Of a stretch of 39,758 nucleotides of DNA, positions 20,169 through 39,758 are shown one piece after another. The stretch comes from Spirochaetota bacterium (GTDB lineage Bacteria > Spirochaetota > Spirochaetia > Treponematales > UBA12059). Both the position numbers and the translations under genes were made by a program. Below the pieces are notes generated by a model, which saw nothing but the letters and a program-made list of their open reading frames with translations, searched no databases and was not told the DNA's origin. Position 1 is the first letter of the stretch. Each line of letters begins with the position of its first letter. The stretch is from contig QKAK01000166.1 of NCBI GenBank assembly GCA_003247225.1, forward strand, positions 1 through 39,758. The letters are read 5' to 3'.

Positions 20169-20173
20169 GCTCC

Positions 20174-22716: not shown

Positions 22717-22750
22717 ACGTGCTCCTGGTCATTGATAACCGATAAAGAAT

Positions 22751-22858
22751 ACCACGGAGACACGGAGGCACGGAGAATGATAAGAAAAGATAAGGACCAG
22801 GTTTTTCCTAGCCTATTCTTGAATCCTTCTTATCTCCGCGTCTCCGTGCCTCCGTGGT
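22751..22858. repeat. MITE-like palindromic element, copy 1
   Basis: A 108-bp element with 26-bp inverted ends (22751-22776 and 22833-22858) that match at 23 of 26 positions. Each end consists of three tandem 8-mers of the form CACGGAGR behind ACC. The AT-rich core includes a further partial inverted ATAAGAA. It has no coding capacity. A near relative lies at 23775-23898 on the other side of the cyclase gene. Elements with CACGGAG-repeat ends occur dispersed in several bacterial groups; how they move is not known to me. Confidence 0.85.
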
Positions 22859-22868
22859 CATATTCGCC

Positions 22869-23741: not shown

Positions 23742-23774
23742 AAGAACCTCCTGTAGATTATAAGAAAGAATCAG

Positions 23775-23898
23775 ACCACGGAGGCACGGAGCCACGGAGT
23801 TCCAGAATAGGTAAAGATCCAAGTAATGAAGAGTATTATCATCTTCCTCTTTTCTCTCTTCCTATTTTACCGACTCCGTGCCTCCGTGCCTCCGTGGT
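23775..23898. repeat. MITE-like palindromic element, copy 2
   Basis: A 124-bp element whose 26-bp inverted ends (23775-23800 and 23873-23898) match at 25 of 26 positions and again carry tandem CACGGAG units. The inner flanks repeat AATAGG in inverted orientation, which also appears in copy 1. The core differs from copy 1 in length and sequence, so only the ends are conserved. It sits in the 168-bp gap between the DUF1116 and cyclase genes, where the operon transcript would fold it into a long hairpin. Confidence 0.87.
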
Positions 23899-23909
23899 TC
23901 TCTTGTCGG

Positions 23910-25343: not shown

Positions 25344-26950
25344 CGGGCGCCTCCTTTCGCGGCGATCCTGGCGATCTCTATCGCGACGAGGGCGGCGCGG
25401 TAGTTGGACGGCATCACGACGACGCCCTCGGCCTCGAGGGCCGCTATCTGCCCGGCGTAGCCCTGCGGGTCGGCGGGCGTGCCGGTCACCGAGGCGATGA
25501 CCGGAAGGTAGCCGCCCCGGGCGGCGGCGGCCGCCTTGGCCGCGCGTATCGCCGGGACGCAGGCGCCCGCCGGGTCGTCGTGCGAGCCGTAGCCGAGCAC
25601 CACGTCGATCAGGACGACCGCGGTCTCGGGGTCGGAGCCTTCCCTCTCGAGGCGCTCGGCCCTGGCGGCCGGGTCGATCATCGGGTGGGGCTTGCCGGCG
25701 GTGAAGAAGTCGTCGCCCAGGTCGATGACAGCGTGGCCCTCGGACCGCAGCGGATCCGCCATCGTCCAGGCCGGGTCGGTCTGGTTGTTCGACCTGACGC
25801 CGCCGAGGGCCGCGTGGGCCAGGAACAGGGCCTCGTCGCAGAGCGTGCCGCCGGTATAGAGGCCGCGCAGGAAGCGCTGCCCCTCGCCGAGCCGTTCCGC
25901 CTCGGCGACCGCGATCGCCTCGATGGCCCGCTTGCTCGGCCTGTTGTAGCGGTCGTTGCCGGAATCGTCGCGGATACGGGTCCTGGCCGTCGCGGGATCG
26001 TTCGATCCGTCCGCGAGCAGGGTCGCGAGCAGGGCGGCTTCTTCCAGGTCGGACGCGTAGGCTATGGTCGCCTCGTCGGCCGGGACCGGCGCGCCGAGGA
26101 AATGGGCCACGGCCGGCTTACCCGAAGCGCGCAGCGCCGCGACGACCTTGGCGGCGACCTCCGGGGCCGGCGGCTTGCCGACGACCAGGATCACGCGCGT
26201 GGCGGGGTCGGCCGCGAGCGCCTCGATGGCCAGCAGGCTGGTCATGCCGCCTACGGCCGCGTTCTTCATGTCGCGGCCGCCGGTGCCTATGGCCTGGCTG
26301 ATTCCTGAACCGTAGCGGTCTATCAGGCAGGTCGTCTCCTGGAGGCCGGTGCCCGAGGCCGCTACCACGCCGATCGGCCCGCGCCTGACCGCGTTCGCGA
26401 AGCACAGCGGCTTGCCGTTGACGATCGCGGTGCCGCAGTCCGGGCCCATCATCAGGAGCCCCTTCGAGACCGCCAGCTTCTTGAGCGCTATCTCGTCTTC
26501 CAGCGAGACGTTGTCCGAGAACACCATCGCGTGCAGGCCGGCCTCGAGCGCCTTCCCGGCCTCCCTGGCGGCGTAGGCGCCCGGTACGGATATCACCGCG
26601 ACGTTGGCGTCGGGATCGCGCGCCAGGGCGGCGGAGAGCGAGCCTACCTTGGCCACGCCGCCCGCGGCCTCGGCGGCCTTCTTCTTCGTAAGCGACTCGA
26701 AGGCTTCCTTTACCGCGGCTTCGGCGGCCTGGTCGCCCTCCGCGTCTACGGCGACGACGAGGTCGTTCGGGCCGAGGCCGTCCAGTTCGGCCGACGGGAA
26801 GCCCATGTCGCCGAGGAGCTCTACGTTCATCGGCGTGGCCATCGCGACGATGGCGTCGCGTACGCCCGCGAGGCCCTTGAGGCCGCGCGTCGCGAGCATG
26901 AGGAACACGGAGTCGTAGTAGGCGCCGCGCTTGACAGTAATTCGTTTCAT
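25340..26950 (-). CDS. fdrA: FdrA/AllF, acyl-CoA-synthetase-like subunit of carbamoyltransferase complex
   Basis: A 536-aa protein of the FdrA family, built from domains related to the alpha subunit of succinyl-CoA synthetase. Visible landmarks are ISVPGAYAAREAGKALEAG, MMGPDCGTAIVNG, GVVAASGTGLQETTCLIDRYG and AIGTGGRDMKNAAVGG. A C-terminal half ends IASVTGTPADPQGYAGQ. It is thought to be the AllF subunit of the complex that takes a carbamoyl group from a ureido acid to phosphate. It lies between the AllH and AllG genes, 26 bp after the former and overlapping the latter, so all three subunits are encoded in one run. The N-terminal residues KRITVKRGAYYDSVFLM are typical. Confidence 0.9.
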   Translation of the reverse strand: MKRITVKRGAYYDSVFLMLATRGLKGLAGVRDAIVAMATPMNVELLGDMGFPSAELDGLGPNDLVVAVDAEGDQAAEAAVKEAFESLTKKKAAEAAGGVAKVGSLSAALARDPDANVAVISVPGAYAAREAGKALEAGLHAMVFSDNVSLEDEIALKKLAVSKGLLMMGPDCGTAIVNGKPLCFANAVRRGPIGVVAASGTGLQETTCLIDRYGSGISQAIGTGGRDMKNAAVGGMTSLLAIEALAADPATRVILVVGKPPAPEVAAKVVAALRASGKPAVAHFLGAPVPADEATIAYASDLEEAALLATLLADGSNDPATARTRIRDDSGNDRYNRPSKRAIEAIAVAEAERLGEGQRFLRGLYTGGTLCDEALFLAHAALGGVRSNNQTDPAWTMADPLRSEGHAVIDLGDDFFTAGKPHPMIDPAARAERLEREGSDPETAVVLIDVVLGYGSHDDPAGACVPAIRAAKAAAAARGGYLPVIASVTGTPADPQGYAGQIAALEAEGVVVMPSNYRAALVAIEIARIAAKGGAR

Positions 26951-26976
26951 CGCATCACCGGATCCTTCCGTTCATA

Positions 26977-27867
26977 TCATAGCGCATCGCCGTATTTAGG
27001 GCGATGCCTCAACGCCTCCGCGAAGCCCGCCAACGCGTCCCGGCCGGAGCTGGCGCCCTTGCCTAGGGCGGCCCGGACCGCCCCGGGCAGCCCGGGGGCG
27101 GTTCCGCCGCGGGATCGGCCGGCGCCCGCGACCTCCAGGGCCAGGTCGGTCAGGTAGGCCGGCGGCGCGCCGGCCAGGGCTCCGGCCAGCAGGGCCCGTC
27201 CGGCCGGCGTCGTCCGCCCGAGGGCCGTGGCGAGCGCGGCCCTGAGCTCCGGCCAGGCCGCCCCGGGGCCGCCGGCGACCAGGTCCCCGGCGGCCAGGTA
27301 TCCGGCCAGCCAGTCGTCTCCGGCCGGCGTCGAGCCGGGCCCGAAGCCGACGATGTTCGCCGGGAACGACGCGTCGCCCCGCAGCCGGGCGAAGGCGGCC
27401 GCGAAGGGCCCGCCGCCGTGGACGCTCACCTCGTCGGCCGGCCCTTCGGCGACCGCCGCGGCTATCGCGTCGGCCGCCGCCGCGAGCGCGGCCCGATCCC
27501 CATCGGCGGCGAGGCTCGCCGCCGCGTTCGCCAGCCCGGGGCGGGGGTCCCAGCGCGTCGCGCCGTCCGCCGGGACCGCGAGCAGGTCGACGCCGCCGGC
27601 CGAGAGCGTAACCGCGGCCTCGTCGAGCCGGACGGAGGCCTCGGCGTCGCCGAGGGCCGAGGCCTCGATGGCGGCGGCCCTGAAATCGGCGAATCCCCTG
27701 TCGAGCAGTATCGCCCTGGCGTCCATATCCCGGACGTCCCCGATTATCGCCACGGCGGCGCCGTCGGCGTGGATCAGGGCCACGGCCCTCGACGCGACCC
27801 ACGCCAGGGACGCCGTCCAGGGCGCCCGCGGCGCGAGGCAGCCAATAGCGCCCACCGTCATCGTCAT
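26977..27867 (-). CDS. allH: DUF2877 protein, AllH/YlbF subunit
   Basis: A 296-aa alanine-rich protein of the DUF2877 family, third partner of FdrA and DUF1116. The signature GFGPGSTPAGDDWLAGYL lies at about residues 192-209, and VSVHGGGPFAAAFARLRG before it. GAGG precedes the ATG at 27867; a second in-frame ATG at 27861 has equally good spacing. The gene follows the permease across a terminator-like hairpin, so its level may be set by partial termination. The three-gene order allH-fdrA-allG differs from E. coli fdrA-ylbE-ylbF, but the gene content is the same. Confidence 0.85.
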   Translation of the reverse strand: MTMTVGAIGCLAPRAPWTASLAWVASRAVALIHADGAAVAIIGDVRDMDARAILLDRGFADFRAAAIEASALGDAEASVRLDEAAVTLSAGGVDLLAVPADGATRWDPRPGLANAAASLAADGDRAALAAAADAIAAAVAEGPADEVSVHGGGPFAAAFARLRGDASFPANIVGFGPGSTPAGDDWLAGYLAAGDLVAGGPGAAWPELRAALATALGRTTPAGRALLAGALAGAPPAYLTDLALEVAGAGRSRGGTAPGLPGAVRAALGKGASSGRDALAGFAEALRHRPKYGDAL

Positions 27868-27886
27868 GCTCCTCGCCAGAAGAAGA

Positions 27887-27910
27887 GGGCCGCCCCGGAA
27901 GGGGCGGCCC
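27887..27910 (-). terminator. Hairpin between permease and allH
   Basis: GGGCCGCCCC (27887-27896) and GGGGCGGCCC (27901-27910) form a perfect 10-bp stem closed by a four-base loop, GGAA on the plus strand. On the coding (minus) strand it is followed by TCTTCTTCT, only 26 bases after the permease stop. It could end part of the transcripts from the xdh-permease genes or protect the upstream mRNA's 3' end. Confidence 0.6.
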
Positions 27911-27935
27911 GTGTCATCGTCCCCTTAGGAATGCG

Positions 27936-29195
27936 TCAGTCGCAGTCCGCCTTCGTGACGTCCTTCGGCCTGAGTATCAGGTTGAGGACGATGCCGAAGA
28001 TCGCGGCGAGGCCGAGGCCGGAGAGCTTCACGTTGCCGACGGCGAAGCTGGCGCCTCCGAGGCCGAGCACCAGCATCGTGGCCGTGATGATGAGCAGCTT
28101 CGAGTTGCCGAGGTTGAGCCTGGCGTCGACCATGTTCTTGATGCCGATCGACGAGATCATGCCGAACAGCAGGATAGAGATGCCGCCGATGACCGGGCCC
28201 GGTATGGTGCCGATCAGCGCGGTGAACTTCGGGATCATCGCGAGCACGATAGCGAAGCACGCGGCGATGCGCATGACGACCGGGTTGCGAACGCCGGTAA
28301 GGGCGACGGCGCCGGTGTTCTCGGAATAGGTCGTGTTGGCCGGGCCGCCGATGAGGGCGGACAGCGAGGTCGCGAGGCCGTCGCCGATCAGCGTGCGGTG
28401 GATGCCCGGGTCCTTGATGAAGTCCTTGCCGACCACGTTGCCGATGGCGAGGACGTCGCCGAAGTGCTCTACCATCGTGACGATGGCGATGGGCAGCATG
28501 ATCGTGATGCCCTCGACCGAGAACTTGGGCAGCGTGAATTTCGGTATGCCTATCCAGGCGGCTTCCCTCACCGAGCCGAAGTCGACGATGCCGATGATGA
28601 TCGCGAGCACGTATCCGGCCACCAGCGCTATCAGCACCGGCAGGTTGGACAGGAACTTCCAACCGAATTTCGGGAACGCCACCTTGACGAAGATGCCGAC
28701 CGCGAAGGTGAACAGGGCTACCAGCCAGCAGCCGTTGACGCCGATGGCCTCGGCGATCGCCGGGGAGTTCGTACCGTTGGCGTTCTGGATCGCTACCGGG
28801 GCCAGGATGAGACCGATCAGGATGATCATCGGGCCGGTGACCTGCGGCGGCAGGATCTTGTGCAGGTTCTCGTACGGGACGAATTTGAAGATGATCGCGA
28901 CCACCACGTACAGGAGGCCCGCGACGACGATGCCGCCGAGCGCGTAGGGCAGGCCCTGGCTGGCGCCGACCGCGGCGATGCCGGGTATGAACGCGAAGGA
29001 GCTGCCGAGGAACACCGGCACCTTGAATTTGGTGACGATGTGGAACAGCCAGGTTCCGATTCCGGCCGCGAACAGCGTCACGCCCACGTCGAGGCCAGTT
29101 AAGATAGGCACGAGCACGGTCGCCCCGAACATGACGAACGTGTGCTGGAGCCCCATCACGACGTTCCTGCCGGTCAGATCTTTCTCTTTATCCAC
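27936..29195 (-). CDS. Uracil/xanthine permease (NCS2 family)
   Basis: A 419-aa inner-membrane nucleobase:cation symporter with about 14 hydrophobic segments. It has family motifs near the N-terminus (GLQHTFVMFGATVLVPILTGLD), in the middle (TMVEHFGDVLAIGNVVGKD, with the conserved Glu and His) and GGPANTTYSENTGAVALTGVRNP, the NCS2 signature. The NxG-type ending favours uracil-type (UraA) permeases. I would not separate uracil from xanthine transport on sequence alone. The start is GTG, decided by AAGGAG seven bases ahead. It stands between the molybdenum hydroxylase genes and the AllFGH genes, so it probably imports the pathway's starting base. Confidence 0.9.
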   Translation of the reverse strand: MDKEKDLTGRNVVMGLQHTFVMFGATVLVPILTGLDVGVTLFAAGIGTWLFHIVTKFKVPVFLGSSFAFIPGIAAVGASQGLPYALGGIVVAGLLYVVVAIIFKFVPYENLHKILPPQVTGPMIILIGLILAPVAIQNANGTNSPAIAEAIGVNGCWLVALFTFAVGIFVKVAFPKFGWKFLSNLPVLIALVAGYVLAIIIGIVDFGSVREAAWIGIPKFTLPKFSVEGITIMLPIAIVTMVEHFGDVLAIGNVVGKDFIKDPGIHRTLIGDGLATSLSALIGGPANTTYSENTGAVALTGVRNPVVMRIAACFAIVLAMIPKFTALIGTIPGPVIGGISILLFGMISSIGIKNMVDARLNLGNSKLLIITATMLVLGLGGASFAVGNVKLSGLGLAAIFGIVLNLILRPKDVTKADCD

Positions 29196-29335
29196 GGCCT
29201 ACTCCTTCCGCGGGCGGCGTTCTCGGCCCTCCGCCCGCGCTCTATCGGCGGTAGCCTCCCCAGCGGCCGACGGCCGCCTTCCGGGGGGCCCCGCGACGGT
29301 CGCCCATAGGGCTGACCGGTCGGTCCCGGGTCGCC

Positions 29336-31771
29336 TCAGTTCCTCTGCCTCGCCTCCGGCGCGGAGCGGCACGAGCCTATCGGCGACTTGGTGATCCAGT
29401 TGTCGATAGGCTCCTTGTCGCGTATCGCGCGCCAGACGTCCTCGAAGCGCATCGGCATGTGCGTGATCTCGGCGCCGGTCGCCTTCTGGATCGCGTTGCC
29501 GAGCGCCGCGGCCACCGATATCATCGAGTGCTCGCCGACGCCGCGCGCCCCGTAGGGGCCGTCCACCTGCGGCGTCTCGACGACGGCGCACTCCACCTCG
29601 AGCGGCAGGTCCTTGGCCGTCGGTATCTTGTTGTCGGTGAACGACGGGTTGAGCAGCCGGCCCTGCTGGTCGTAGATGTAGCCCTCGCAGATCGCGGTGC
29701 CCAGGCCCTGCATCATGCCGCCTATCGCCTGCCCCCGGACGATGTCCGGGTTGATCGCGCGGCCGACGTCGTAGATGCTCGCTATCTTGAGCACGCGGTA
29801 CTCGCCGGTCTCCTCGTTTACCTCGACGACCATGCCGTGGGCGCCGAAGGTCCAGTCGAGCGCCGGGTTGCCCTCGCCGGTCTCCTTGTTCAGGTTGGAC
29901 AGGCCCTGGGCTATGTAGCGGCCGACGCCGATCAGCGGCCCGCCGACGCCCGACCCGTTCGGCAGCGCGAAGCCGACCGCCATCGACGCGAAGCTGACGC
30001 CCTGGTCGGCGCGGTGCCTGACGAAGACCCTGGCCCCGTCGTGGGCCAGGTCGCGCGGGTTGGCGTGGAGCACCTCGGCGGCCACCGCGTAGGCGTTCTT
30101 GAGCAGGTCCTCGGCGGCAAGGATAGCCGCGTTGCCCGACAGCAGCAGGCCCTTGGACGCGACCGTCTGCCAGTCGTAGGGGTCCCGGTCGGTATCGTTC
30201 TCGAAGGCTACCTTGATCTTCTCGATCGGGAACCCGAGCCGCTCCGCGACGATCTGCCGTATCGAGGCGTAGGTTCCCTGGCCGTAGTCGGTCAGGGCCA
30301 GGTTGACGAGGACCGAGCCGTCCTCGTTCATCTTGAGCACGACCGCGGTCGCCGTGTACGACGGCATCGCCGGCGCCTTCTGGAGCGCCGCGACTCCCTT
30401 GCCTATCTTCCAGCCGGTCGCCTTCTCGCGGGCCTTCTCCGCCTCGGTCAGGCTGCCGTAGCCTACGCGGCGCGCGGCTTCCTCGATGCACTTGACCACG
30501 TTACCGGTGTGCTCGACGATCTTCTCCCCGGTCAGGGTGACCGAGCCGGGCCTGAGCGCGTTCTTGAGCCTGAACTCGAGCGGGTCCATGCCGATCGCGG
30601 TCGCGACCAGCTCCATGTGGCGCTCGATGGCCCAGTGGAACTCGACGTGGCCGAAGCCGCGGTACGCGGTGCCGTAGGGCTTGTTCGTGTAGATCGTGTA
30701 CGCGTCGATCCAGGCGTTCGGTATCTCGTAGGGTCCCGAGGCCGAGTAGCCGGACGCCCTCGTCACGTTGACGGCGTAGTCCGCGTAGGCGCCGGAGTCC
30801 CAGTACATCGTCATGTGCTGGGCCAGGATCTTGCCCTCGGCCGAGACGCCGGTCTTGATGCGGTAGGTGAGCGCCGAGCGGCAGGGCAGGAGGCTGAATT
30901 CCTCCTCGCGGCTGGCCTGGAACTTGACCGGCTTGCCGCCGGCCTTGCGCGACAGCACCGCGCAGAGCGGCTCGACGCCGATGCCCGCCTTGCCGCCGAA
31001 GCCTCCTCCGACGTAGGGGATCTGCACGCGCACGTTTATGTGCGGTAGCCCGAAGGCGTGGCAGAACAGGTTGCGCACGGTGAACGGCGACTGGGCGCTC
31101 GTCCAGATCGACACCTTGTCGCCCCGGCCCCATTGCACGATGGCCACGTGGGTCTCCATCGGCACGTGCTGCACCGACGGGCAGGAATACTCGCGCTCGA
31201 CGACGTAGGCCGACTCGGCGAAGCCCCGCTCGACGTCGCCCTTGCGCAGCTTGGTATGGTTGGCGATGTTCGTGCCCGGCTTGGGCGTGAAGACGGCCTC
31301 GATGTACGAGTACGAGCCGAGGTCCGGGTGGACGAGCGGCGCGTCGGGCTTGAGAGCGTCCATATGGTGGAGCACCGGGGGCAACGGCTCGTAGTCGACC
31401 TCGATCGCCTCGACCGCGGCCCTGGCCTGCTCGAGGGTCTCGGCGGCGACCGCCGCCACGGCCTCGCCGTAATGCCTGACCTCGCCCTTGGCCAGGATGT
31501 ACTTGTCGACGATATACAGGCCGATGTGGTAGTCGAGCTCGTCTCCCGTGACGATGGCGCGTACTCCCGGCATCGCGGCCGCCTTGGAGACGTCGATGCC
31601 CTTGATGCGCGCGCGCGCGTGGGGGCTCTTCTTGAGCTGCACGTGGAGCATGCCGGGAAGCTCCATGTCGCTGACGAAGGTCGCCTCGCCGGTGAGCTTC
31701 TCGACCATGTCCGGCCGGCCCGCCTTCTTGCCGACGTACTCGAGGTCGTCGGGGCTGATATCGTCAAACAT
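29336..31771 (-). CDS. xdhA: Molybdenum-cofactor subunit of a xanthine-dehydrogenase-family hydroxylase
   Basis: An 811-aa catalytic subunit that hydroxylates N-heterocycles or aldehydes with water as the oxygen source. It shows the family N-terminal domain (RPDMVEKLTGEATFVSDM). The Mo-binding segments follow: IPYVGGGFGGKAGIGVEP, YRGFGHVEFHWAIERHMEL and DYGQGTYASIRQI. The catalytic Glu is in GARGVGEHS, and a full C-terminal domain is present. The substrate-determining pocket cannot be assigned by eye, so xanthine is only one option; uracil- or hydantoin-type substrates are also possible from context. It overlaps the iron-sulfur subunit gene by eight bases. A 140-bp gap with a GCGGCC/GGCCGC hairpin (near 29262) separates it from the permease. 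Confidence 0.92.
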   Translation of the reverse strand: MFDDISPDDLEYVGKKAGRPDMVEKLTGEATFVSDMELPGMLHVQLKKSPHARARIKGIDVSKAAAMPGVRAIVTGDELDYHIGLYIVDKYILAKGEVRHYGEAVAAVAAETLEQARAAVEAIEVDYEPLPPVLHHMDALKPDAPLVHPDLGSYSYIEAVFTPKPGTNIANHTKLRKGDVERGFAESAYVVEREYSCPSVQHVPMETHVAIVQWGRGDKVSIWTSAQSPFTVRNLFCHAFGLPHINVRVQIPYVGGGFGGKAGIGVEPLCAVLSRKAGGKPVKFQASREEEFSLLPCRSALTYRIKTGVSAEGKILAQHMTMYWDSGAYADYAVNVTRASGYSASGPYEIPNAWIDAYTIYTNKPYGTAYRGFGHVEFHWAIERHMELVATAIGMDPLEFRLKNALRPGSVTLTGEKIVEHTGNVVKCIEEAARRVGYGSLTEAEKAREKATGWKIGKGVAALQKAPAMPSYTATAVVLKMNEDGSVLVNLALTDYGQGTYASIRQIVAERLGFPIEKIKVAFENDTDRDPYDWQTVASKGLLLSGNAAILAAEDLLKNAYAVAAEVLHANPRDLAHDGARVFVRHRADQGVSFASMAVGFALPNGSGVGGPLIGVGRYIAQGLSNLNKETGEGNPALDWTFGAHGMVVEVNEETGEYRVLKIASIYDVGRAINPDIVRGQAIGGMMQGLGTAICEGYIYDQQGRLLNPSFTDNKIPTAKDLPLEVECAVVETPQVDGPYGARGVGEHSMISVAAALGNAIQKATGAEITHMPMRFEDVWRAIRDKEPIDNWITKSPIGSCRSAPEARQRN

Positions 31772-32249
31772 GCTCGAGCTCTCCCTTCTTCTCGGGGCTG
31801 CCGGTCAGGTCGAGCACGGCCTCGACTATCTGGGTATAGCCGGTGCATCGGCAGAAGTTGCCCTCGATGGCCTCCTTGACCTGGTCGGCGCTCGGCTTCG
31901 GGTGCTCTGAGAGCAGCTCCTTGACCGACATCACCATGCCGGCGGTGCAGAAGCCGCACTGCACGGCGTGGTTGCGCTCGAAGGCCTTCTGTATGTCCGA
32001 CAGCGACGGGCCGTCGGCCTCGCCCTCGATGGTCCGTATCGTCGCCCCGTCCGCCTCGACCGCGAGCACCATGCACGAGTTGACCGCGCGCCCGTTCATG
32101 ATCACGGTGCACGCGCCGCACTCGCCCATGCCGCAGCCTTCCTTGGTGCCCATGAGGCCGAGATCCTCGCGCAGGAAGCGGAGCAGCGTCCTGTGCTCGG
32201 CGCAGTCGCGCTCGTATCCGAGCCCGTTGACCGTTAGCTGTATCCTCAT
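31764..32249 (-). CDS. xdhC: 2Fe-2S subunit of the molybdenum hydroxylase
   Basis: A 161-aa electron-transfer subunit. The N-terminal plant-type ferredoxin cluster is ligated in GCGMGECGACTV plus NSC. The C-terminal helical domain holds the second 2Fe-2S cluster in QCGFCTAGM and GNFCRCTGY. All eight cysteines are present. GGAGG nine bases before the ATG sets the start. It is the middle gene of the three-subunit enzyme, passing electrons from the Mo subunit to the FAD subunit. Confidence 0.95.
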   Translation of the reverse strand: MRIQLTVNGLGYERDCAEHRTLLRFLREDLGLMGTKEGCGMGECGACTVIMNGRAVNSCMVLAVEADGATIRTIEGEADGPSLSDIQKAFERNHAVQCGFCTAGMVMSVKELLSEHPKPSADQVKEAIEGNFCRCTGYTQIVEAVLDLTGSPEKKGELEHV

Positions 32250-32250
32250 G

Positions 32251-33063
32251 TCACTTAACCTCCGTGAACAGGCGCCGGGCGTAGACGCCTATCATGTGCT
32301 CGCGGTACTCCTTGGTCCCGCGGACGTCGCTGATCGGCGATACCGACGCGAGCACCTTACGCGCGGCCTCGTCCGCCGAGTCCTTCACCGTTACCGAGTC
32401 GACGAGGACCGGCGTCGGGGCGGCCGAGCTGACCGCGAAGCGCAGCTCGCCGTCGCGCCTGGTCATGAGCACGCCGACGATGCCGAGGTCGTGGCCGGCT
32501 ATGCGCTTGAGCTTGAGGTAGCGGCCGCGCGCCCCGGCCGACTCGGCCGGTACGACTATGGCCGATAGGAATTCGCCCGGGGCCAGCACCGTCTTCTTGA
32601 CGCCGGCGAAGAACTGCGAGAACGGCACGACCCGCTCGCCGGTCGCCGAGCGGATCACCGCCTTCGCGCCGAGGCACAGCAGCGCGGGCGCCATGTCGGA
32701 GCAGGGCGACGCGTTGACCACGTTGCCGGCCACGGTCGCGCGGTTGCGTATCTGGTGGCTGGCGAGCTCGTGCGCGCAGTCGCAGAGGACCGGATAGCGC
32801 TCGCGCGCGTCCTTCGACCGCAGGATGTCGTTGATGGTGACGGCCGGGCCGATCGAGAGGCCGTCGGCGCCGTACGACAGCCTGTCCGCCCCGCTATACT
32901 TCTTCAGGTCGATGACGACCTTCGGCTTCATTATGCCGTTGCGTATGCTCGGGATGAGGTCGGTCCCTCCCGCCAATAGCTTGCCGTCGTCCTTATGGCC
33001 GTCGAGCACCGCGGCTAATTCAGCCGCCGTCCTCGGGGCCAGGTACCTGAACTCGTAGACCAT
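32251..33063 (-). CDS. xdhB: FAD subunit of the molybdenum hydroxylase
   Basis: A 270-aa FAD-binding subunit of the xanthine dehydrogenase/CO dehydrogenase type and first gene of the minus-strand operon. It shows the pyrophosphate-binding LLAGGTDLIPSIRNG and the second FAD motif TVAGNVVNASPCSDMAPALLCLG, followed by the CO_deh_flav_C domain (about 165-265). It passes electrons to NAD+ or another acceptor. The start is preceded by an AAAGG element. Its leader, 33064 to about 33146, contains an intrinsic-terminator structure. Confidence 0.93.
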   Translation of the reverse strand: MVYEFRYLAPRTAAELAAVLDGHKDDGKLLAGGTDLIPSIRNGIMKPKVVIDLKKYSGADRLSYGADGLSIGPAVTINDILRSKDARERYPVLCDCAHELASHQIRNRATVAGNVVNASPCSDMAPALLCLGAKAVIRSATGERVVPFSQFFAGVKKTVLAPGEFLSAIVVPAESAGARGRYLKLKRIAGHDLGIVGVLMTRRDGELRFAVSSAAPTPVLVDSVTVKDSADEAARKVLASVSPISDVRGTKEYREHMIGVYARRLFTEVK

Positions 33064-33091
33064 GTGTGCTGCCTTTCGCGCGTACCCTATG

Positions 33092-33120
33092 AAACAAAAA
33101 CCCGGATCGTTCGAACCGGG
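33092..33120 (-). terminator. Leader terminator (putative attenuator) of the xdh operon
   Basis: On the minus strand CCCGG (33120-33116) pairs with CCGGG (33105-33101), with an inner TCG/CGA after a T-T mismatch. TTTTTGTTT (33100-33092) follows. This is an intrinsic terminator that lies after the operon's likely promoter but 28 bases before the xdhB start codon. No upstream minus-strand gene needs it. A small TTCC TTCA GGAA hairpin (33133-33122 on this strand) directly precedes it. The arrangement suggests conditional readthrough. Confidence 0.7.
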
Positions 33121-33152
33121 CTTCCTGAAGGAAATACTACTAGCTTGCCTTA

Positions 33153-33182
33153 AGTTAAGACACCGTTCTAGTAAGGTGTCAA
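33153..33182 (-). promoter_or_regulatory. Promoter and overlapping dyad operator of the xdh-all operon
   Basis: On the minus strand a perfect TTGACA (33182-33177) is followed after 18 bases by TTAACT (33158-33153), or after 17 by CTTAAC. GACACC at 33159-33164 and GGTGTC at 33175-33180 form an inverted repeat around a CTAG centre that covers the -35 end and the spacer. A second small dyad, CTTAA-G-TTAAG (33149-33159), overlaps the -10. The layout suggests a repressor binding over the promoter. No regulator gene lies next to it except the CBS/ATPase gene, which is not DNA-binding. Confidence 0.6.
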
Positions 33183-33205
33183 GGAAAATGTACCCCGGCG
33201 TCGGC

Positions 33206-33234
33206 TTGTGGTCGATACGGTTTCATGAGACAAT
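33206..33234 (+). promoter_or_regulatory. Possible promoter of the CBS/DRTGG/PHP/kinase operon
   Basis: TTGTGG (33206-33211) and GACAAT (33229-33234) are spaced by 17 bases. The start would fall at about 33241, right before the ATG at 33242, giving a leaderless message. Both hexamers are only partial matches, so this is tentative. The alternative is a promoter in the AT-rich stretch shared with the divergent xdh operon, with translation from the ATG at 33188. Confidence 0.3.
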
Positions 33235-33241
33235 CGGCCCG

Positions 33242-34198
33242 ATGGTCTCGTTCCCTATCGATACCGAGGGCGGTCCGCAGGTCGTCCTGGAGCTCATCTA
33301 CCGCCTCAAGGTCAAGGACGTGATGAAGCGCGACGTCATAACCGCCTCCGCCTCGTCGAGCCTGCGGGACATCCAGCTCTCGATGCGCGACCGCGGCATC
33401 ACCGGCGTGCCGATCGTCGACGGCGACAGGCTGCTCGGCATCGTGTCCATCGGGGACGTCATCCAGGCCCTCGACGGCGGCTGGATACACGAGCTGGCGG
33501 CCGACCGCATGAGCACCGCGATCATCGTGCTCGAGGACGACATGCCGCTGTCGTTCGCCATCACCTATTTCAACCGCTACGGGTATCGGCGCTTCCCCGT
33601 GCTCGATAAGAACGCCTCGCTGGTCGGCATCGTCACCGCGGCGGACGTGCTGCGCGCGCTGCTCATCGAGATGAACCGCGAGGTGGAGAAGCTCGAGGAG
33701 GGCCTGGCCGGCCGGGCGGCCGCGGCGAGGGACGCAGCGGCGCCGGCGGCGGCCGGGGACGCGGGCGGGGCCGGCCTGACGATGAGCTTCGTCTCGCGGC
33801 GCTTCGACTTCGAGAACGCGGGCAAGGCGTCCGCCGAGCTCAAGAAGGCCCTCCGGGGGCTCGGCGTCGACGCGGCGTCCATACGCCGGGCGGCCATCGT
33901 CAGCTACGAGCTGGAGATGAACCAGGTCATACATTCCGACGGGGGCGTCATGGAATTCTCCGTGGCGCCCGGCTCGGTCAGGATAGTCGCGCGGGACGAG
34001 GGGCCGGGCATCGCCGACGTCGAGGCCGCGCTGACCGAGGGATTCTCCACCGCCAACGAGTGGATACGCTCGCTCGGCTTCGGCGCCGGCCTAGGCCTGC
34101 CGAACGCCAAGCGATCGTCGGACCGATTCGAGCTTTCGTCGAGCGCGGGCGCGGGAACGACCGTGCTCGCCGTCATTACGTACCAGGAGCGATCATGA
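33242..34198 (+). CDS. CBS-domain pair fused to a GHKL (anti-sigma-like) ATPase
   Basis: A 318-aa cytoplasmic protein. Two CBS motifs (about residues 20-135, with KVKDVMKRDVITASASSSLRDI, GVPIVDGDRLLGIVSIGDVI and RRFPVLDKNASLVGIVTAADVLRAL) form a module that usually binds adenine nucleotides. An Ala/Gly linker leads to a GHKL ATPase of RsbT/RsbW type (about 180-318), with N-box MNQVIHSDGG, ARDEGPGIADVE and GFGAGLGLPNAK. Such fusions are seen beside DRTGG, PHP and [FeFe]-hydrogenase genes, where they are thought to sense the energy state. The frame is open upstream to 33062. I choose 33242 because similarity begins there, but ATG 33188 with AAGG ahead of it is possible. Its stop overlaps the DRTGG gene start. 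Confidence 0.78.
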   Translation: MVSFPIDTEGGPQVVLELIYRLKVKDVMKRDVITASASSSLRDIQLSMRDRGITGVPIVDGDRLLGIVSIGDVIQALDGGWIHELAADRMSTAIIVLEDDMPLSFAITYFNRYGYRRFPVLDKNASLVGIVTAADVLRALLIEMNREVEKLEEGLAGRAAAARDAAAPAAAGDAGGAGLTMSFVSRRFDFENAGKASAELKKALRGLGVDAASIRRAAIVSYELEMNQVIHSDGGVMEFSVAPGSVRIVARDEGPGIADVEAALTEGFSTANEWIRSLGFGAGLGLPNAKRSSDRFELSSSAGAGTTVLAVITYQERS

Positions 34199-34527
34199 AG
34201 GTAAGCGATCTATCGACCCGCCTCGGCTTCGAGGCCATCTGCGCGCCGGCGGGGGACGCCGACGTCACCGACGGCTACGCGTCGGACCTCTTGTCGGACG
34301 TCATGGCCAAGGCCGGGGACGGCTCGGTGCTCATCACCATCCAGGCGCATAAGAATACCGTCGCCGTCGCCTCGCTGATAGGCATCCCCGCGGTCATCAT
34401 CTGCAACGACCGCCCGGTGCCGAGCGACATGATCGAGGCCGCCGAGGCCGAGGGCGTCGCGCTGCTCCGGACGCCTAAGACGCAGTTCGAGGTCGCCGGA
34501 ACGCTCTATCCGGAGCTACGGGGCTAG
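34195..34527 (+). CDS. DRTGG-domain protein
   Basis: A 110-aa stand-alone DRTGG domain, the fold that precedes kinase or transacylase domains in HPr kinase and Pta but here lacks any catalytic partner. It contains DVTDGYASDLLSDVMAKA, ITIQAHKNTVAVASLIGIPAVIICNDRP and ALLRTPKTQFEVAGTLYPEL. These are typical of the small DRTGG proteins found near redox enzyme operons of anaerobes. Probably a small-ligand sensor. GGAG precedes the ATG, which overlaps the stop of the CBS/ATPase gene (ATGA). Confidence 0.83.
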   Translation: MKVSDLSTRLGFEAICAPAGDADVTDGYASDLLSDVMAKAGDGSVLITIQAHKNTVAVASLIGIPAVIICNDRPVPSDMIEAAEAEGVALLRTPKTQFEVAGTLYPELRG

Positions 34528-34547: not shown

Positions 34548-35282
34548 ATGCTCGTCGCCTGCGACTTCCATAACCACTCGTGCCTATCGCCGTGCGGCAG
34601 CCTGGAGCAGTCGCCGTCCGTCCTCGCAAGGCTGGCCCGCGAGCGCGGCCTCGGCCTCGTCGCGCTGACCGACCACAACAGCGCCCTCAATACCCCGGCC
34701 TTCGCGGAGCGCGCCGCGGCCGAGGGCGTCGCTGCGCTCTACGGTATAGAGGCGACGAGCGCCGAGGAGGTGCACGTGCTCTGCCTGTTCGCCGAGGTGC
34801 GCGCGGCCCTCGATTTCGGCCGCTTCCTGGAGGGGCGATTGCCTCGGCTCGCCTACGATCCGGATAAGCTCGGCGACCAGGTGGTGGTCGACGCCGACGA
34901 GAACGTGCTGGACCTGCCCGAGCTGTACTTCGGGGCCGCCCTCGAGCTCGATTACGGGGAGCTGTGCGAGTCGGCGGCCGAGCGGGGCGCCCTCGTCGTC
35001 CCGGCGCACATCGACCGCCCGATGTTCGGCGCTATATCGCAGCTCGGCTTCCTGCCCGACGGCCCGTACGCGGCGGTCGAGGCGGTCAGGCCGCTGCCCG
35101 ACGGCGCGGCCAGGGGATACGCGGTCATAACCGGCTCGGACGCCCATTATCCGGAGCACGTGGCGCGGCGTCCGTTCGGGCTCGAGCTCGCCGACGGCTG
35201 GGACTCAGGCGGCGAGGTGGACCTGGAGGCCGTCCGCGCCGCTCTGGCCGAGGGGCGGGTGCGCCTGCCGTTCGCCACGTGA
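34548..35282 (+). CDS. PHP-domain metal-dependent phosphoesterase
   Basis: A 244-aa PHP hydrolase, trinuclear-metal phosphoesterase fold related to histidinol phosphatase and DNA polymerase X/III PHP domains. Metal-ligand motifs are all visible: DFHNHSCLSPCG at the N-terminus, LTDHNS, GIEATSAEEVHVLCLF, PAHIDR and ITGSDAHY. The substrate is unknown; a phosphate ester or nucleotide is likely. It follows the DRTGG gene by 20 bp and overlaps the start of the large kinase gene, so it belongs to the same operon. PHP genes of this type recur in the hydrogenase-linked regulatory cluster of anaerobes. Confidence 0.87.
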   Translation: MLVACDFHNHSCLSPCGSLEQSPSVLARLARERGLGLVALTDHNSALNTPAFAERAAAEGVAALYGIEATSAEEVHVLCLFAEVRAALDFGRFLEGRLPRLAYDPDKLGDQVVVDADENVLDLPELYFGAALELDYGELCESAAERGALVVPAHIDRPMFGAISQLGFLPDGPYAAVEAVRPLPDGAARGYAVITGSDAHYPEHVARRPFGLELADGWDSGGEVDLEAVRAALAEGRVRLPFAT

Positions 35283-38200
35283 GGCCGGCCGCGCTTGCGG
35301 CGATCCTCCTCCTCGCGCTCGGGCCGTGCGCCGGCCGTCCGGCCGCGCTCGGCGCCGCCGACGTCGACGACGCCGCGGTACCGACGGCCCCTCCGCCGCG
35401 CGTCGCCGGCAGCGAGGCCGACTATACCATCGTCCTGGCCGGAGACGCGGCTTCGCTGTCGGACCGCCTGCTCGTGCACGTCGAGGGGCCGAGGGGCCTG
35501 CCCCTGACGGCGTTCGGCGCCGAGCCGGATAGGACGCTGTTCTCGCGGCTGCCCGAGAGCGGCAGGCGCGGCGTCGGGAGCGCCCTGAGCGAGGACCCGC
35601 TCGCCTCGTCGACCCTGTGGCTATGCTTCAGGCTCGATAACCGCTCGCGCGAAGCGGCGTGGACCATCGTCGCCGACGGAGCCGGTTTCAGGCCCCTTTC
35701 GATGGTGATCGTCGATGGCGACGGCCGGATCCAGCATTACGGCGGCGAGGCGCTCGACTCCATGCGCATAGAGTCGAGCCTGGCCGACCTGTCGGCGTAC
35801 GCGCTAAGCGCGCCGCCTGAATCGGAGAGGACCGTCTACCTGCGCCTGCCCGCGGGCTCCCGCTTCGGGCCGAGCGTCGGCGTCTGGTCGCACGGGGCCT
35901 TCATGGAGCGCTCGGAAGCCAGGCTCGCGCTCATGGACGGCATAGCCGGATTCGCCGCGGCCGTCTGCGCGATCTACCTGCTCCTGTCATCCCGTCATTG
36001 GCCCTCGGCGTACACGGGCCTCTCGCGGCGCGCCGACCGGGCGCTCTCCTACGCCATGCCGATCCTCGCCTGCGCGTCGGTGCTGCTCGGCCGGACCGGC
36101 GGCGTTACGACGCTGGCCTCCATCGGCGGCGGGGCCAGGTACGCCCTCGCCCTGGCCCTCGGCGTCGCGGCGGCGGCGACGGAGTGCGTCCTGGCGGCTC
36201 GGCGGACCTCCGCGTCGCGGTCGGAAGGCGGGCTCGACTCGCGCCGGGTCGCCGCGGTCATGGCGACGAGGGCCGCGGCCGCCCTGGCCTTCGCCTCCGC
36301 GGCGGCTTTCGGCCCGCTGACCGTCGCCTCGCTGGCGCTTCCGGCCTGGCTGACCCTTACCGTCAGCCTGGCCGCGGGCTCGAGGCTCTCGTCCATCGCC
36401 GGCGGCTCGCGCGCCTCGCACGTCGAGTCGAAGCGCTTACTGGCTAGGCTCGAATCGGAGACGAGGGGCGGCATCGACTTCATGACGGCGACCGCGGCCG
36501 CGCTCCGCGGGCCTCTCCACGGCATGATCGGCATGCTCGAGGACTTGGACGCCTTGGTCCAGGACGCGCCGCGATCGGCCCGGGCTTCGTCCGACCTCGC
36601 GTTCGCGCGGGCCGAGGCCGCGCGCCTCGATATACTCGTATCGAATATCCTCAGCTATTCGGGCATGGGGCCGTCCAGGCTCGCGGCCGAGAACGTCGAC
36701 CTGGCGTCCGTGGCCAGGTCGGCGGCGAGCCTCCTGCGCGTGTCCATCGCCGGCAAGGGCGTCCGAGTCGCCGTCGACGCGCCCGTCGTCGAGATCCGCG
36801 GCGATATCGGCGTATCCCACCGGCTGCTCTATACGGCGATGAGCCACGCCTCGAGGGTAGCCGGCGCGTCGACGGTCAGGGTCACGGCGTCGTCCGACGA
36901 GAGCAGGGTCAGGGTACTCGTCCAGGACGACGGCGCGGCGCTGGACTCGCCGTCGGGGGCCGTCGTCGACAAGGGCGCGTTCAGCCAGGAACGCCTAGAG
37001 CTCGATATCGACTCGATCGTGCTGGGCCGGCTGGCCGGCCTGCTCGGCGGCTCCTACCGCATCGAGCGGCGGGCCGGCATGAACGTACGCGTGTTCGACC
37101 TGCCCCGGCAGGCTCCGTTCGGCGAGTCCGTCACGGGGCCGCGCGCCCTATCGGAGTTCCCGTCCGCGGCGGGCGCGGACCGCGACGGCCATGGCGAGCC
37201 GGCGCGACCGGCCGGGCGGGTCCTCGTCGCGGGCAACGAGCCGGTAGCCCTCCTGTCGATCAAGCGCCGGCTCGAGTCCTCGGGCTGGTCGGTCCGCGCT
37301 ACGGTGTCGTCCGCCGACGCGCTCGAGATGGCGCTCGGGAAGCCCGCTCAGTCGGCCCAGGCCTCCGACGGCCAGCCGTACGACATCGTCATCATAGACT
37401 CGTCGATGCCCGGCATGAGCGGCTTCGAGTTCTGCGAGTCGGTGCGCCGCGGCAAGTCGCCCGAGGCGCTCCCGATCATCCTGCTGCTCGAGCCGGGCCG
37501 GGTCGACGAGGTGGAGCGGGCCTTCCGCGCCGGCGCGAACGACTATATCGTCCGCCCGGCCTCGGGCATCGAGCTGGCCGCCAGGGTCAAGACCCTCGTC
37601 GACCTGTCGTCGAGCGTCAGGCGGGAGCTGAGGCATGCCACCCGCCTGGCCGAATTCGACAAGTACCGGACCCTGGCGATGCTGTCGGCCGGCGTCGCGC
37701 ACGAGATCAATACCCCGAATAACGCGGTGCTGCGTACCGTGCCCATGCTCAAGGAGATCTGGAACGGCATCGAGCCGGTCGTCGAGCGCCTGAGCCGCGA
37801 GGAGGACGGCTTCAGCCTGGGCGGCTTCGGGTACGACGACCTGAGGCGCGACGTGCCCGACATGCTCAACGACCTCTATATGGGCGCCCAGGACATAAAG
37901 AAGATAGTCGAGGGGCTCAAGGACTACGCCAGGTCCCCGTCGGAGAGCTCCAGCCTGGCGATCGTCGACGCGAACGAGGCCATCCTCTACGCCGCGCGCC
38001 TGCTCAAGCATACGATCGCCGTGTCCACCGACCGCTTCTCGATGACGCTGGCCGATAGCCTGCCCAAGGTCAAGGCCGACAGGCTCAAGCTGACCCAGGT
38101 GATCGTCAACGCGCTCGAGAACGCCCTCCAGGCCATCACGGGCAGGTCGGACGGCGTCTCCGTACGCAGCGAGTCGGTCGACGACCCCGAGCTCGGCCGC

Positions 38201-38434
38201 TCGGTCGCCATCAGCATCGCCGACGAGGGCGTCGGCATGGAGCCGGGGGTCCTGGCCTCGGTCTTCTCGCCGTTCTTCACCACGAAGCGCGACCGCGGCG
38301 GCTCGGGGCTCGGCATGCCGGTCGCCCTCGGCCTGGTCCAGGACATGCGCGGCACCATCGATATACAATCGGAGAAGGGAGCCGGCACTACCGTGACGAT
38401 ACGCATCCCGGTATGGCAAGGCGCGGAGGGCTGA
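35279..38434 (+). CDS. Membrane hybrid kinase with inactive first kinase module and active second one
   Basis: A 1051-aa sensor. A signal peptide leads to an extracytoplasmic beta-rich domain of the 7TMR-DISM type (about 30-215) and several membrane helices (about 218-385). A first HisKA/HATPase unit follows (395-610) in which the phospho-His is Ala407 (TATAAALRGPL in place of SHEIRTPL), the N-box Asn is missing and G1 reads DDGAAL. A degenerate receiver comes next (about 645-765): no acidic pocket (VLVAGNEP) and Arg for Lys (YIVRPAS), though an Asp remains in IIDSSMPG. A complete kinase ends the protein (795-1051): His808 in GVAHEINTPNN, N-box NALENALQAI, G1 IADEGVGM, and GGSGLGMPVALGL. The GTG start overlaps the PHP stop. 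Confidence 0.85.
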   Translation: MRPAALAAILLLALGPCAGRPAALGAADVDDAAVPTAPPPRVAGSEADYTIVLAGDAASLSDRLLVHVEGPRGLPLTAFGAEPDRTLFSRLPESGRRGVGSALSEDPLASSTLWLCFRLDNRSREAAWTIVADGAGFRPLSMVIVDGDGRIQHYGGEALDSMRIESSLADLSAYALSAPPESERTVYLRLPAGSRFGPSVGVWSHGAFMERSEARLALMDGIAGFAAAVCAIYLLLSSRHWPSAYTGLSRRADRALSYAMPILACASVLLGRTGGVTTLASIGGGARYALALALGVAAAATECVLAARRTSASRSEGGLDSRRVAAVMATRAAAALAFASAAAFGPLTVASLALPAWLTLTVSLAAGSRLSSIAGGSRASHVESKRLLARLESETRGGIDFMTATAAALRGPLHGMIGMLEDLDALVQDAPRSARASSDLAFARAEAARLDILVSNILSYSGMGPSRLAAENVDLASVARSAASLLRVSIAGKGVRVAVDAPVVEIRGDIGVSHRLLYTAMSHASRVAGASTVRVTASSDESRVRVLVQDDGAALDSPSGAVVDKGAFSQERLELDIDSIVLGRLAGLLGGSYRIERRAGMNVRVFDLPRQAPFGESVTGPRALSEFPSAAGADRDGHGEPARPAGRVLVAGNEPVALLSIKRRLESSGWSVRATVSSADALEMALGKPAQSAQASDGQPYDIVIIDSSMPGMSGFEFCESVRRGKSPEALPIILLLEPGRVDEVERAFRAGANDYIVRPASGIELAARVKTLVDLSSSVRRELRHATRLAEFDKYRTLAMLSAGVAHEINTPNNAVLRTVPMLKEIWNGIEPVVERLSREEDGFSLGGFGYDDLRRDVPDMLNDLYMGAQDIKKIVEGLKDYARSPSESSSLAIVDANEAILYAARLLKHTIAVSTDRFSMTLADSLPKVKADRLKLTQVIVNALENALQAITGRSDGVSVRSESVDDPELGRSVAISIADEGVGMEPGVLASVFSPFFTTKRDRGGSGLGMPVALGLVQDMRGTIDIQSEKGAGTTVTIRIPVWQGAEG

Positions 38435-38439
38435 CCATC

Positions 38440-39758
38440 ATGGACGAGAAACGCGGTTCGGTCATAGTCGTCGACGACGACGTCGGGGTGCTGAGGCGGC
38501 TGGATCGCCTGCTGCGCTTCGAGGGCTACGGCGAGGTGGTCATGTGCGAGCGGGCCGACGACGCCTGGCCGGCGCTGCGCTCGTCGCGGCCGGTGGCCAT
38601 GATACTCGACCTGATGATGCCCGGCGTCGACGGCTACGCGACGCTCGAGCGCATGAGGACCGAGCGGCCCGACGTGCCGGTCATCGTCGCCACCGCGATC
38701 GACGACCTGGATACCGTCGTCCGCTGCATGAAGGCGGGCGCCTTCGACTACGTGCCCAAGTCGGCCGAGACCTCGAGGCTGCTGGCGAGCCTCGAGCACG
38801 CCGCCATGATAGGCAGGCTGCTCGACGACAACAAGGCCCTGCGCGACAGCCTGCTCCAGGACGACCGCAGCTCCCTCGGCTTCTTCGAGGGCATCATCAC
38901 GCGCAACAAGAAGATGACCGACATCTTCAGGTACCTGGCGGCGATCGCCAAGAGCGACAAGCCGATACTGATCTGCGGCGAGTCCGGCACCGGCAAGGAG
39001 CTGTTCGCGTCGGCGGCCCACGCCGCCTCCGGACGCTCGGGAGAGCTCGTGACGGTCAACATCGCCGGCCTGGACGACGCGATGTTCAGCGACACGCTAT
39101 TCGGGCACAAGCGCGGGGCCTTCACCGGCGCCGATACCGATAGGCTCGGCCTGATCGAGCGGGCCAAGGGCGGCACGCTGTTCCTCGACGAGATAGGCGA
39201 CCTGCCGCAGCAGAGCCAGGTCAAGCTGCTCAGGCTGATAGAGCAGCGCAGGTACTACCCGCTCGGCGCCGACATGACCCGCTCGTCCGACGCCCTGATC
39301 GTCGCCGCGACCAACCGCGACCTCGAGCGGGCCTGCGCCGAGGGATCGTTCAGGCCGGACCTGTACTTCAGGCTGGAGACGCACCTGGTACGCCTGCCCC
39401 CGCTCCGCGAGCGCCGCGACGACCTGCCGCCGCTGGTCGAGGCCTTCGTCGCCAGGGCCGCCGAGAAATTCGGCAAGCCGGCGCCGGGCGTGCCGGCCGA
39501 GCTCTACGACCTGCTCGGCGCCTACGATTTCCCCGGTAACGTGCGCGAGCTCGAGTCTATGGTGCACGACGCCGTCGGACGGGCGGACGGCAGGACGCTG
39601 TCGCTCGATTCGTTCCGGCGCCGGGTGTTCAAGCCGGGAGCGCGGCCGGTCGCCGCGTCTCCGGTCGCCAAGAACGTGTTCTCCGCGCTGACCACCCTGC
39701 CGACCATCCGCGAGGCCTCCGACGCGCTGATCGAGGAGGCCTTGGCGCGCTCGGGCGG
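38440..39758 (+). CDS. Sigma-54-dependent NtrC-type response regulator (3' end outside window)
   Basis: The first 439 residues of an enhancer-binding activator. The receiver domain (1-120) has acidic pocket VIVVDDDV, phospho-Asp in MILDLMMPGVDG and Lys in YVPKSAE. The AAA+ domain (about 147-385) has Walker A GESGTGKE, the sigma-54 contact loop RGAFTGA, Walker B GGTLFLDEIGDL, and the sensor-type segment FRPDLYFRLETHLVRLPPLRERRDDL. The window ends as the Fis-type helix-turn-helix begins (TIREASDALIEEALARSG). It starts 5 bp after the hybrid kinase stop and is surely its output partner. It implies the genome has RpoN. Targets are unknown. Confidence 0.93.
   Translation, partial: MDEKRGSVIVVDDDVGVLRRLDRLLRFEGYGEVVMCERADDAWPALRSSRPVAMILDLMMPGVDGYATLERMRTERPDVPVIVATAIDDLDTVVRCMKAGAFDYVPKSAETSRLLASLEHAAMIGRLLDDNKALRDSLLQDDRSSLGFFEGIITRNKKMTDIFRYLAAIAKSDKPILICGESGTGKELFASAAHAASGRSGELVTVNIAGLDDAMFSDTLFGHKRGAFTGADTDRLGLIERAKGGTLFLDEIGDLPQQSQVKLLRLIEQRRYYPLGADMTRSSDALIVAATNRDLERACAEGSFRPDLYFRLETHLVRLPPLRERRDDLPPLVEAFVARAAEKFGKPAPGVPAELYDLLGAYDFPGNVRELESMVHDAVGRADGRTLSLDSFRRRVFKPGARPVAASPVAKNVFSALTTLPTIREASDALIEEALARSG

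Follow-up and report, generated by a model that had tools for sequence, protein, structure and literature searches.

The window analyzed here comprises positions 1 to 39,758 (39,758 nucleotides) of contig QKAK01000166.1 from a Spirochaetota bacterium (assembly GCA_003247225.1). On its forward strand lies a gene (35279–38434), recognized by its open frame, Pfam matches and homologues, that encodes a hybrid histidine kinase of 1,051 amino acids. The frame opens with a GTG codon overlapping the stop of the upstream PHP gene, and the gene of a σ54-type response regulator (RR) follows. The parts of this gene and the neighboring genes of its locus that are given below with window coordinates lie on the same strand. 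From the N-terminus, the protein consists of a periplasmic sensor domain, a membrane region, a first kinase module (HK1), a receiver (REC) and a second kinase module (HK2); each kinase module comprises a dimerization and histidine phosphotransfer (DHp) domain and a catalytic and ATP-binding (CA) domain. Pseudo-histidine kinases and HK1-REC-HK2 hybrids are both already known, and the protein is a variant of these kinds.

Catalytic motifs of HK1, REC and HK2

The initial annotation had described a dead kinase module in front of a live one, and the residues it singled out in the first module were borne out. DHp1 (residues 387–462; 36437–36664), delimited by alignment, profile and fold, has no phospho-His: in sequence and alignment the GCC codon at 36497–36499 puts Ala407 in its place (TAAALRGPL against SHELRTPL). 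The N-box Asn of the ATPase is replaced by His523 and the second Gly of the G1 box by Ala554; G1 keeps Asp551-Gly552, and no F or G2 box is recognizable. According to alignment and model, CA1 (residues 471–610; 36689–37108) is a degenerate domain that has kept its fold and lost its N, G1 and G2 boxes; the N-box Asn is retained in one relative, G071. In Pfam, the first module of the window copy gives a sub-threshold HisKA match at residues 408–461 and no HATPase match. The family profile nevertheless aligns over the whole DHp and CA of solved kinases (best E 1.7e-23; DivL 1.8e-21; RetS 9e-19), and a separate model of HK1 has the DHp hairpin and the CA fold, the latter mostly with a predicted local distance difference test (pLDDT) score above 90; DivL and RetS are among its best Foldseek matches. 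With the homology and fold of a HisKA/HATPase core but neither the phospho-His nor the N, G1, F and G2 boxes, HK1 fits, as judged from its sequence, the pseudo-histidine kinases, i.e., kinase homologues that lack the essential activity yet are retained. Such a missing His is seen in about 0.9% of HisKA domains (PMC12632262). The source genome is a draft in 224 contigs, and an assembly or reading-frame error, or a misassigned H-box, might be suspected, but we give this a negligible chance: the frame is intact, independent genomes show the loss too, and the profile matches solved kinases over the full length, all of which contradict it.

For the receiver (residues 646–775; 37214–37603; Pfam and alignment), the annotation had stated that the acidic pocket and the lysine were lost. 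This holds, with Gly652-Asn653 in place of the Asp-Asp pair and Arg759 in place of Lys, and the Thr/Ser position is Leu737; the acceptor Asp707, however, is still present. The domain is a pseudo-receiver in the sense of a REC fold without the full catalytic set, but not under the stricter definition by a missing Asp. HK2 was correctly described as complete. DHp2 (37679–37936; alignment) carries His808 (37700–37702), Glu809 and Thr812, and CA2 (residues 896–1045; 37964–38413), found by Pfam HATPase_c (1.5e-24) and alignment, carries Asn944/Asn948, Asp982-x-Gly984-x-Gly986, Phe1000 and Gly1008/1010/1012, so that the His, N, G1, F and G2 motifs of a HisKA/HATPase core are all there.

Stepwise loss and selection among the homologues

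A search of 23 genomes of the same family and 294 of the same order yielded 20 homologues in two bacterial families, f1 (that of the window) and f4. The HK2 His is present in 20/20 and the HK1 His in none, so the comparison of orthologues proposed in the annotation did not turn the window copy into an isolated decayed allele of a gene that elsewhere has the His. Conservation of Ala407 itself is partial: Ala occurs in all six gene-bearing species of the window's genus, but the residue varies in other lineages, being Glu, Arg, Arg, Ser and Asp in other f1 genera, Phe (one) or Leu (five) in the six f4 members, and Arg, Lys or a gap in three very diverged f1 members (G010, G020 and G021). In 11 genomes the family scores 275–305 bits, compared with at most 93 for the next kinase of the same genome, and most of these next-best kinases have a normal H-box. 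All dead HK1s stand on one side of a branch with 97/99 support, apart from 25 other sampled kinases. The simplest reading is a single loss of the HK1 His in an ancestor, and the data support the view that the phospho-His and the ATP-site motifs were lost before the two bacterial families diverged. No relative combining a live HK1 with the same REC-HK2 half occurs in our sample of the phylum, so the loss is unrooted; a single-protein query against genome contigs returned only distant kinases.

In the receiver, the Asp and Thr are kept in 6/6 f4 members and the Lys in 4/6, and several members also keep an acid residue. All but one of the f1 members whose sequence covers the Lys have Arg in its place; the window's genus has Gly-Asn for the acid pair and has usually lost the Thr. 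Asp707 is kept in 16/20 homologues, with Glu in G014, G020 and G021. Since REC of the sister family has most of its catalytic residues while that of the window's genus has decayed, the alignments indicate a stepwise loss, in which REC decayed in this genus after the HK1 loss common to all members.

The strength of selection was estimated as the ratio of nonsynonymous to synonymous substitution rates (dN/dS, ω) from one pair, the window copy and its closest relative, G019. The values were 0.14 for DHp1, 0.16 for CA1 and 0.15 for the two together (95% confidence interval 0.09–0.24), compared with 0.19 for REC, 0.21 for HK2 and 0.38 for the sensor and transmembrane (TM) region; the 33-residue linker between HK1 and REC gave 1.05 (interval 0.42–2.97). 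HK1 is under purifying selection and, with 0.15 against 0.21 in HK2, the dead module is about as constrained as the live kinase. Its framework residues Pro412, Glu471, Glu505, Asp509 and Gly590-Gly591 are conserved. Within the genus, 57–62% of the positions of DHp1 and 26% of those of CA1 are invariant; since HK2 shows the same trend (DHp 69–89%, CA 45%), this difference does not separate docking from dimerization. The assumption that HK1 and REC are functionless, decaying remnants would agree with the loss of all HK1 catalytic motifs and with CA1 being the most variable folded cytoplasmic domain. Yet we regard it as very improbable, because an ω similar to that of a live kinase and the retention of HK1 with conserved framework residues across two families both contradict it. 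The His loss in all 20 homologues, the clade of their own and the low ω strongly support the proposal that HK1 was retained as a non-catalytic module.

Shrinkage of the membrane region ran parallel to the decay of REC. This region (residues 205–372; 35891–36394) is preceded by a periplasmic DISMED2-like sensor domain (residues 105–210; 35591–35908), which has a beta fold in the model and a weak PF07696 match in the window copy (17.0 bits, cut-off 22); 11/19 members match, some of them clearly. The annotation had spoken of a 7TM-DISM sensor, but hydropathy and the model give only about five helices here and not the canonical bundle of seven. The label seems to hold by descent, since six relatives match 7TMR-DISM_7TM (best E 5e-35). 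The region has about 222–229 residues in f4 and several f1 members, and 164–177 in the window's genus; by hydropathy, 4–5 TM helices are predicted in this genus and 5–7 in relatives with the full-length region. In G008 the membrane domain is down to one predicted helix (shortened copies are found in L015, L019 and the window). With an odd number of TM helices, the kinase would stay in the cytoplasm.

In the same bacterial family, another, unrelated family of hybrid kinases (L087, L110 and L109, the last being the same gene as L088) also has Ala or Ser at the phospho-His position (SAELRSPL). These proteins are built as HisKA-HATPase-REC, and at least one copy continues into a cyclase-like region; a similarly built protein from another family (L078) keeps the His.

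Proposed coupling of HK1 to the live kinase

The full-length AlphaFold monomer has a mean pLDDT of 75 and a predicted template modeling score (pTM) of 0.39 and is readable for single domains only. It contains one continuous helix that joins the last TM segment to DHp1 (residues 347–427) and another that joins REC α5 to DHp2 (residues 763–808; 37565–37702; model and alignment). The stretch from REC α5 to His808 (residues 766–808) has a constant length in 19/19 complete homologues, and this spacing together with the modeled helix gives the LvrB-like arrangement in which REC α5 is continuous with the signaling helix and DHp. The HK1-REC linker (residues 612–645; 37112–37213), characterized by alignment, dN/dS and the model, is of low confidence in the model and varies between 31 and 56 residues among the homologues. 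The annotation's idea of a transmitter between sensor and active kinase is therefore only partly upheld: the two helices fit it, but because the linker is disordered, length-variable and near-neutral, signal passage along a rigid rod is unlikely. Dimer switching of HK1, or its docking onto REC or HK2, appears more likely than linear transmission.

The best PDB match of the full model is LvrB (structure 8vc9), a REC-DHp-CA kinase matched via the REC-HK2 half, and the LvrB model in NCBIfam also matches the protein. In LvrB, rearrangement of the REC dimer forms the αS coiled coil and frees the CA domains, and the α5/αS route has been solved (PMC13269768). Both proteins continue REC α5 as a signaling helix into DHp; LvrB is switched by phospho-Asp56, whereas the REC of the window lacks the acid pair and the Lys. 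The HK1-REC-HK2 order in one chain is shared with LvrA of Leptospira, a cytosolic protein with both His residues (218 and 616) and REC Asp524 (PMC5863495); this likeness is one of layout, the homology evidence concerning the related LvrB, and in contrast to LvrA the window protein is membrane-bound, with a dead HK1 and a degenerate REC. The same order plus a separate response regulator is found in TodS of Pseudomonas putida, which has PAS sensors and a full His190-Asp500-His760 phosphorelay (PMC4861429), whereas our protein lacks the first His. Its domain order is thus that of these hybrids, but its sequence, without the His or ATP-site motifs, speaks against a live HK1 that phosphorylates REC. 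A degenerate receiver also controls a kinase core in cis in ShkA (PMC12632262); there the pseudo-receiver comes after the live core, whereas here it precedes the live core and the dead kinase comes first.

Taking these comparisons together, we consider it probable, though far from certain, that an LvrA/TodS-like phosphorelay is represented here by a form whose front half now serves, without catalysis, as an allosteric coupler to HK2 by way of the continuous REC-α5/DHp2 helix. Such a protein may have originated when a membrane 7TM-DISM hybrid kinase (HK1-REC) was joined to a REC-controlled kinase (HK2), selection then keeping HK1 as a presumably dimeric, non-catalytic DHp-CA module. The TM-DHp1 helix would be moved by the periplasmic sensor, and the seating of the REC dimer would depend on the state of HK1 as a dimer; since REC α5 runs on into DHp2, this seating would in turn set the state of the HK2 coiled coil and the balance of HK2 between kinase and phosphatase activity. 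REC would exert its control as in LvrB, but, in the window's genus, without being phosphorylated, so that HK1-to-REC coupling would be phosphate-free and HK2 the sole catalytic unit. Motifs, adjacency and conserved pairing suggest that HK2 autophosphorylates on His808 and passes the phosphate to the downstream σ54 RR.

The main rival, which we hold to be unlikely, is that HK1, as RetS and DivL do, acts in trans, with a DHp that docks another kinase or a phosphorylated RR as a second sensory input. DivL and RetS, as noted, belong to the closest matches of HK1 in sequence and fold, DHp1 is far more conserved within the genus than CA1, as expected of a docking face, and DivL, with Tyr (Ala in Magnetospirillum) at this position, senses DivK~P (PMC4211667). 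However, the higher conservation of DHp is also seen in HK2 and hence is not specific to docking by HK1, position 407 is occupied by different residues in different lineages, which would not be expected of a specific reader site, and the locus encodes no further partner. DivL and RetS share with HK1 a kinase fold without the normal output, and DivL also lacks the His, but they are separate proteins that act in trans, and DivL keeps all the ATP-site boxes that HK1 has lost. Less probable still is a REC that remains a phosphorylated input, with HK2, another kinase or acetyl-phosphate acting on Asp707 and HK1 being a mere tether. The frequent retention of Asp707, the sister-family members that keep the acid residue, Asp, Thr and Lys, and the phosphorylation of the LvrB REC in trans by LvrA (PMC5863495) would suit it, but not the Gly-Asn pair, the Arg for Lys, the usual loss of Thr and the change of Asp to Glu in three homologues, nor selection on HK1 as strong as on HK2, which would be unexpected for a tether.

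Several points count against a phosphate-free coupler. The dN/dS values come from a single pair and the interval for the linker is wide; the HK1 His column is uncertain in G010, G020 and G021, which are too diverged; the low pTM of the monomer makes the geometry between domains uninformative, and the dimer is our inference; and with Asp707 still in the window copy, some phosphorylation of REC is possible. The value of this clade lies in the loss of the HK1 His in every member found, with REC decaying later in steps, and in the presence of a live kinase in the same chain, with selection on the dead part measurable. Phosphate-free signaling by a histidine-kinase module thereby becomes directly testable.

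Locus partners and a predicted small RNA

The cognate regulator, a REC-AAA-Fis σ54 RR (38440–39758), was assigned from sequence and locus comparison and is cut by the end of the contig. Comparison of loci also identified the conserved neighbors upstream: the PHP-domain phosphoesterase gene (34548–35282), a gene for a DRTGG/HPr-kinase-N-like protein with an uncertain start (34060–34527) and one for a CBS-pair plus HATPase (SpoIIAB-like) protein (33062–34198). The PHP, kinase and RR genes stand together in 17/17 loci. The DRTGG gene is missing only from one of these, which ends early; 15 have the CBS-HATPase gene. Distant HK2 relatives (HEINNPN kinases with other input domains) also adjoin similar σ54 regulators, which supports HK2 and its RR as the older pair.

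In the same draft genome (G000), contig C217 has an end (L184:2656–2802) that overlaps the last part of the window (39612–39758). This contig holds the last ~30 residues of the RR, an enhancer-like palindrome, a σ54 promoter (TGGCACGTTTCTTGCA) and a predicted RNA (the last three at L184:2128–2340, reverse strand), then a gene that, from its sequence alone, we take to be HlyIII-like; the palindrome, promoter and RNA are conserved past the RR gene in L127–L143. A TGGCAY-N6-TGCW element lies on the same strand 205–275 bp past the RR stop in 16/16 loci, against 0.03 expected from shuffles; inside the window, σ54 elements are at chance level. The best match to a TGTGCA-N4-TGCACA-type palindrome in each region stands 187–239 bp upstream of the promoter, again in all 16 loci, and in 13 of them it individually exceeds the shuffles at P < 0.03.

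From the promoter, an RNA of ~120–200 nt is predicted, with 48 GUAAA repeats summed over the loci compared with ~16 in shuffles. A terminator-like hairpin was found at its end in 14 of the 15 loci scanned; the script found none in G010. Eight f1 sequences have the repeats within a CCC/GGG stem; this stem and the terminator show a few two-sided changes, a modest signal. In 10/23 family genomes the covariance model finds exactly one copy, and the kinase is present in all ten; among them are G020 and G021, both outside the training set of the model, with the copy at the syntenic place. Nine loci that include the RNA region gave no Rfam match.

The system appears, on this comparative evidence, to switch on a previously unlisted small RNA: the σ54 RR would activate the promoter past its own gene and thereby the transcript with tandem GGUAAAA motifs. 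The link between the RR and the promoter, it should be said against this, follows only from position and motif. A response regulator, σ54-type in the first two cases, drives a small RNA in LuxO-Qrr, GlrR-GlmY and GacA-RsmY,Z, but the RNA of the present system differs, with the repeat GGUAAAA and not GGA. That both halves of the picture are true, i.e., that in one clade the front half of a relay turned into a coupler working by purely mechanical means and without phosphate, with the stages of conversion still visible among relatives, and that its output is a new σ54-driven small-RNA family with tandem GGUAAAA as a decoy or multi-target RNA, we propose tentatively and at somewhat less than even chances. 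If the RNA is real, the two families would share a compact locus that holds the complete circuit from sensor to RNA.

Among 11 more distant σ54 RRs, four (L163, L166, L168 and L169) have TGGCAY-N6-TGCW 150–274 bp past the stop, without GUAAA repeats; σ54 transcripts that start past the regulator gene may be more widespread in this group of regulators. The CBS, DRTGG and PHP neighbors were also considered for a role connected with hydrogenase. Several [FeFe]-hydrogenases are present in the genomes, but none was seen in the regions read around the locus and a search of the literature was fruitless, so this reading was dropped. Beside the kinase operon (19359–33063), the window carries a MerR regulator and genes of purine/allantoin catabolism (xanthine dehydrogenase subunits, xanthine/uracil permease, AllG, CoA-ligase, cyclase and amidase). 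The divergent xanthine-dehydrogenase operon adjoins the kinase operon in all five relatives read from the window's genus but not in other genera, and was therefore not accepted as a general target of the system.

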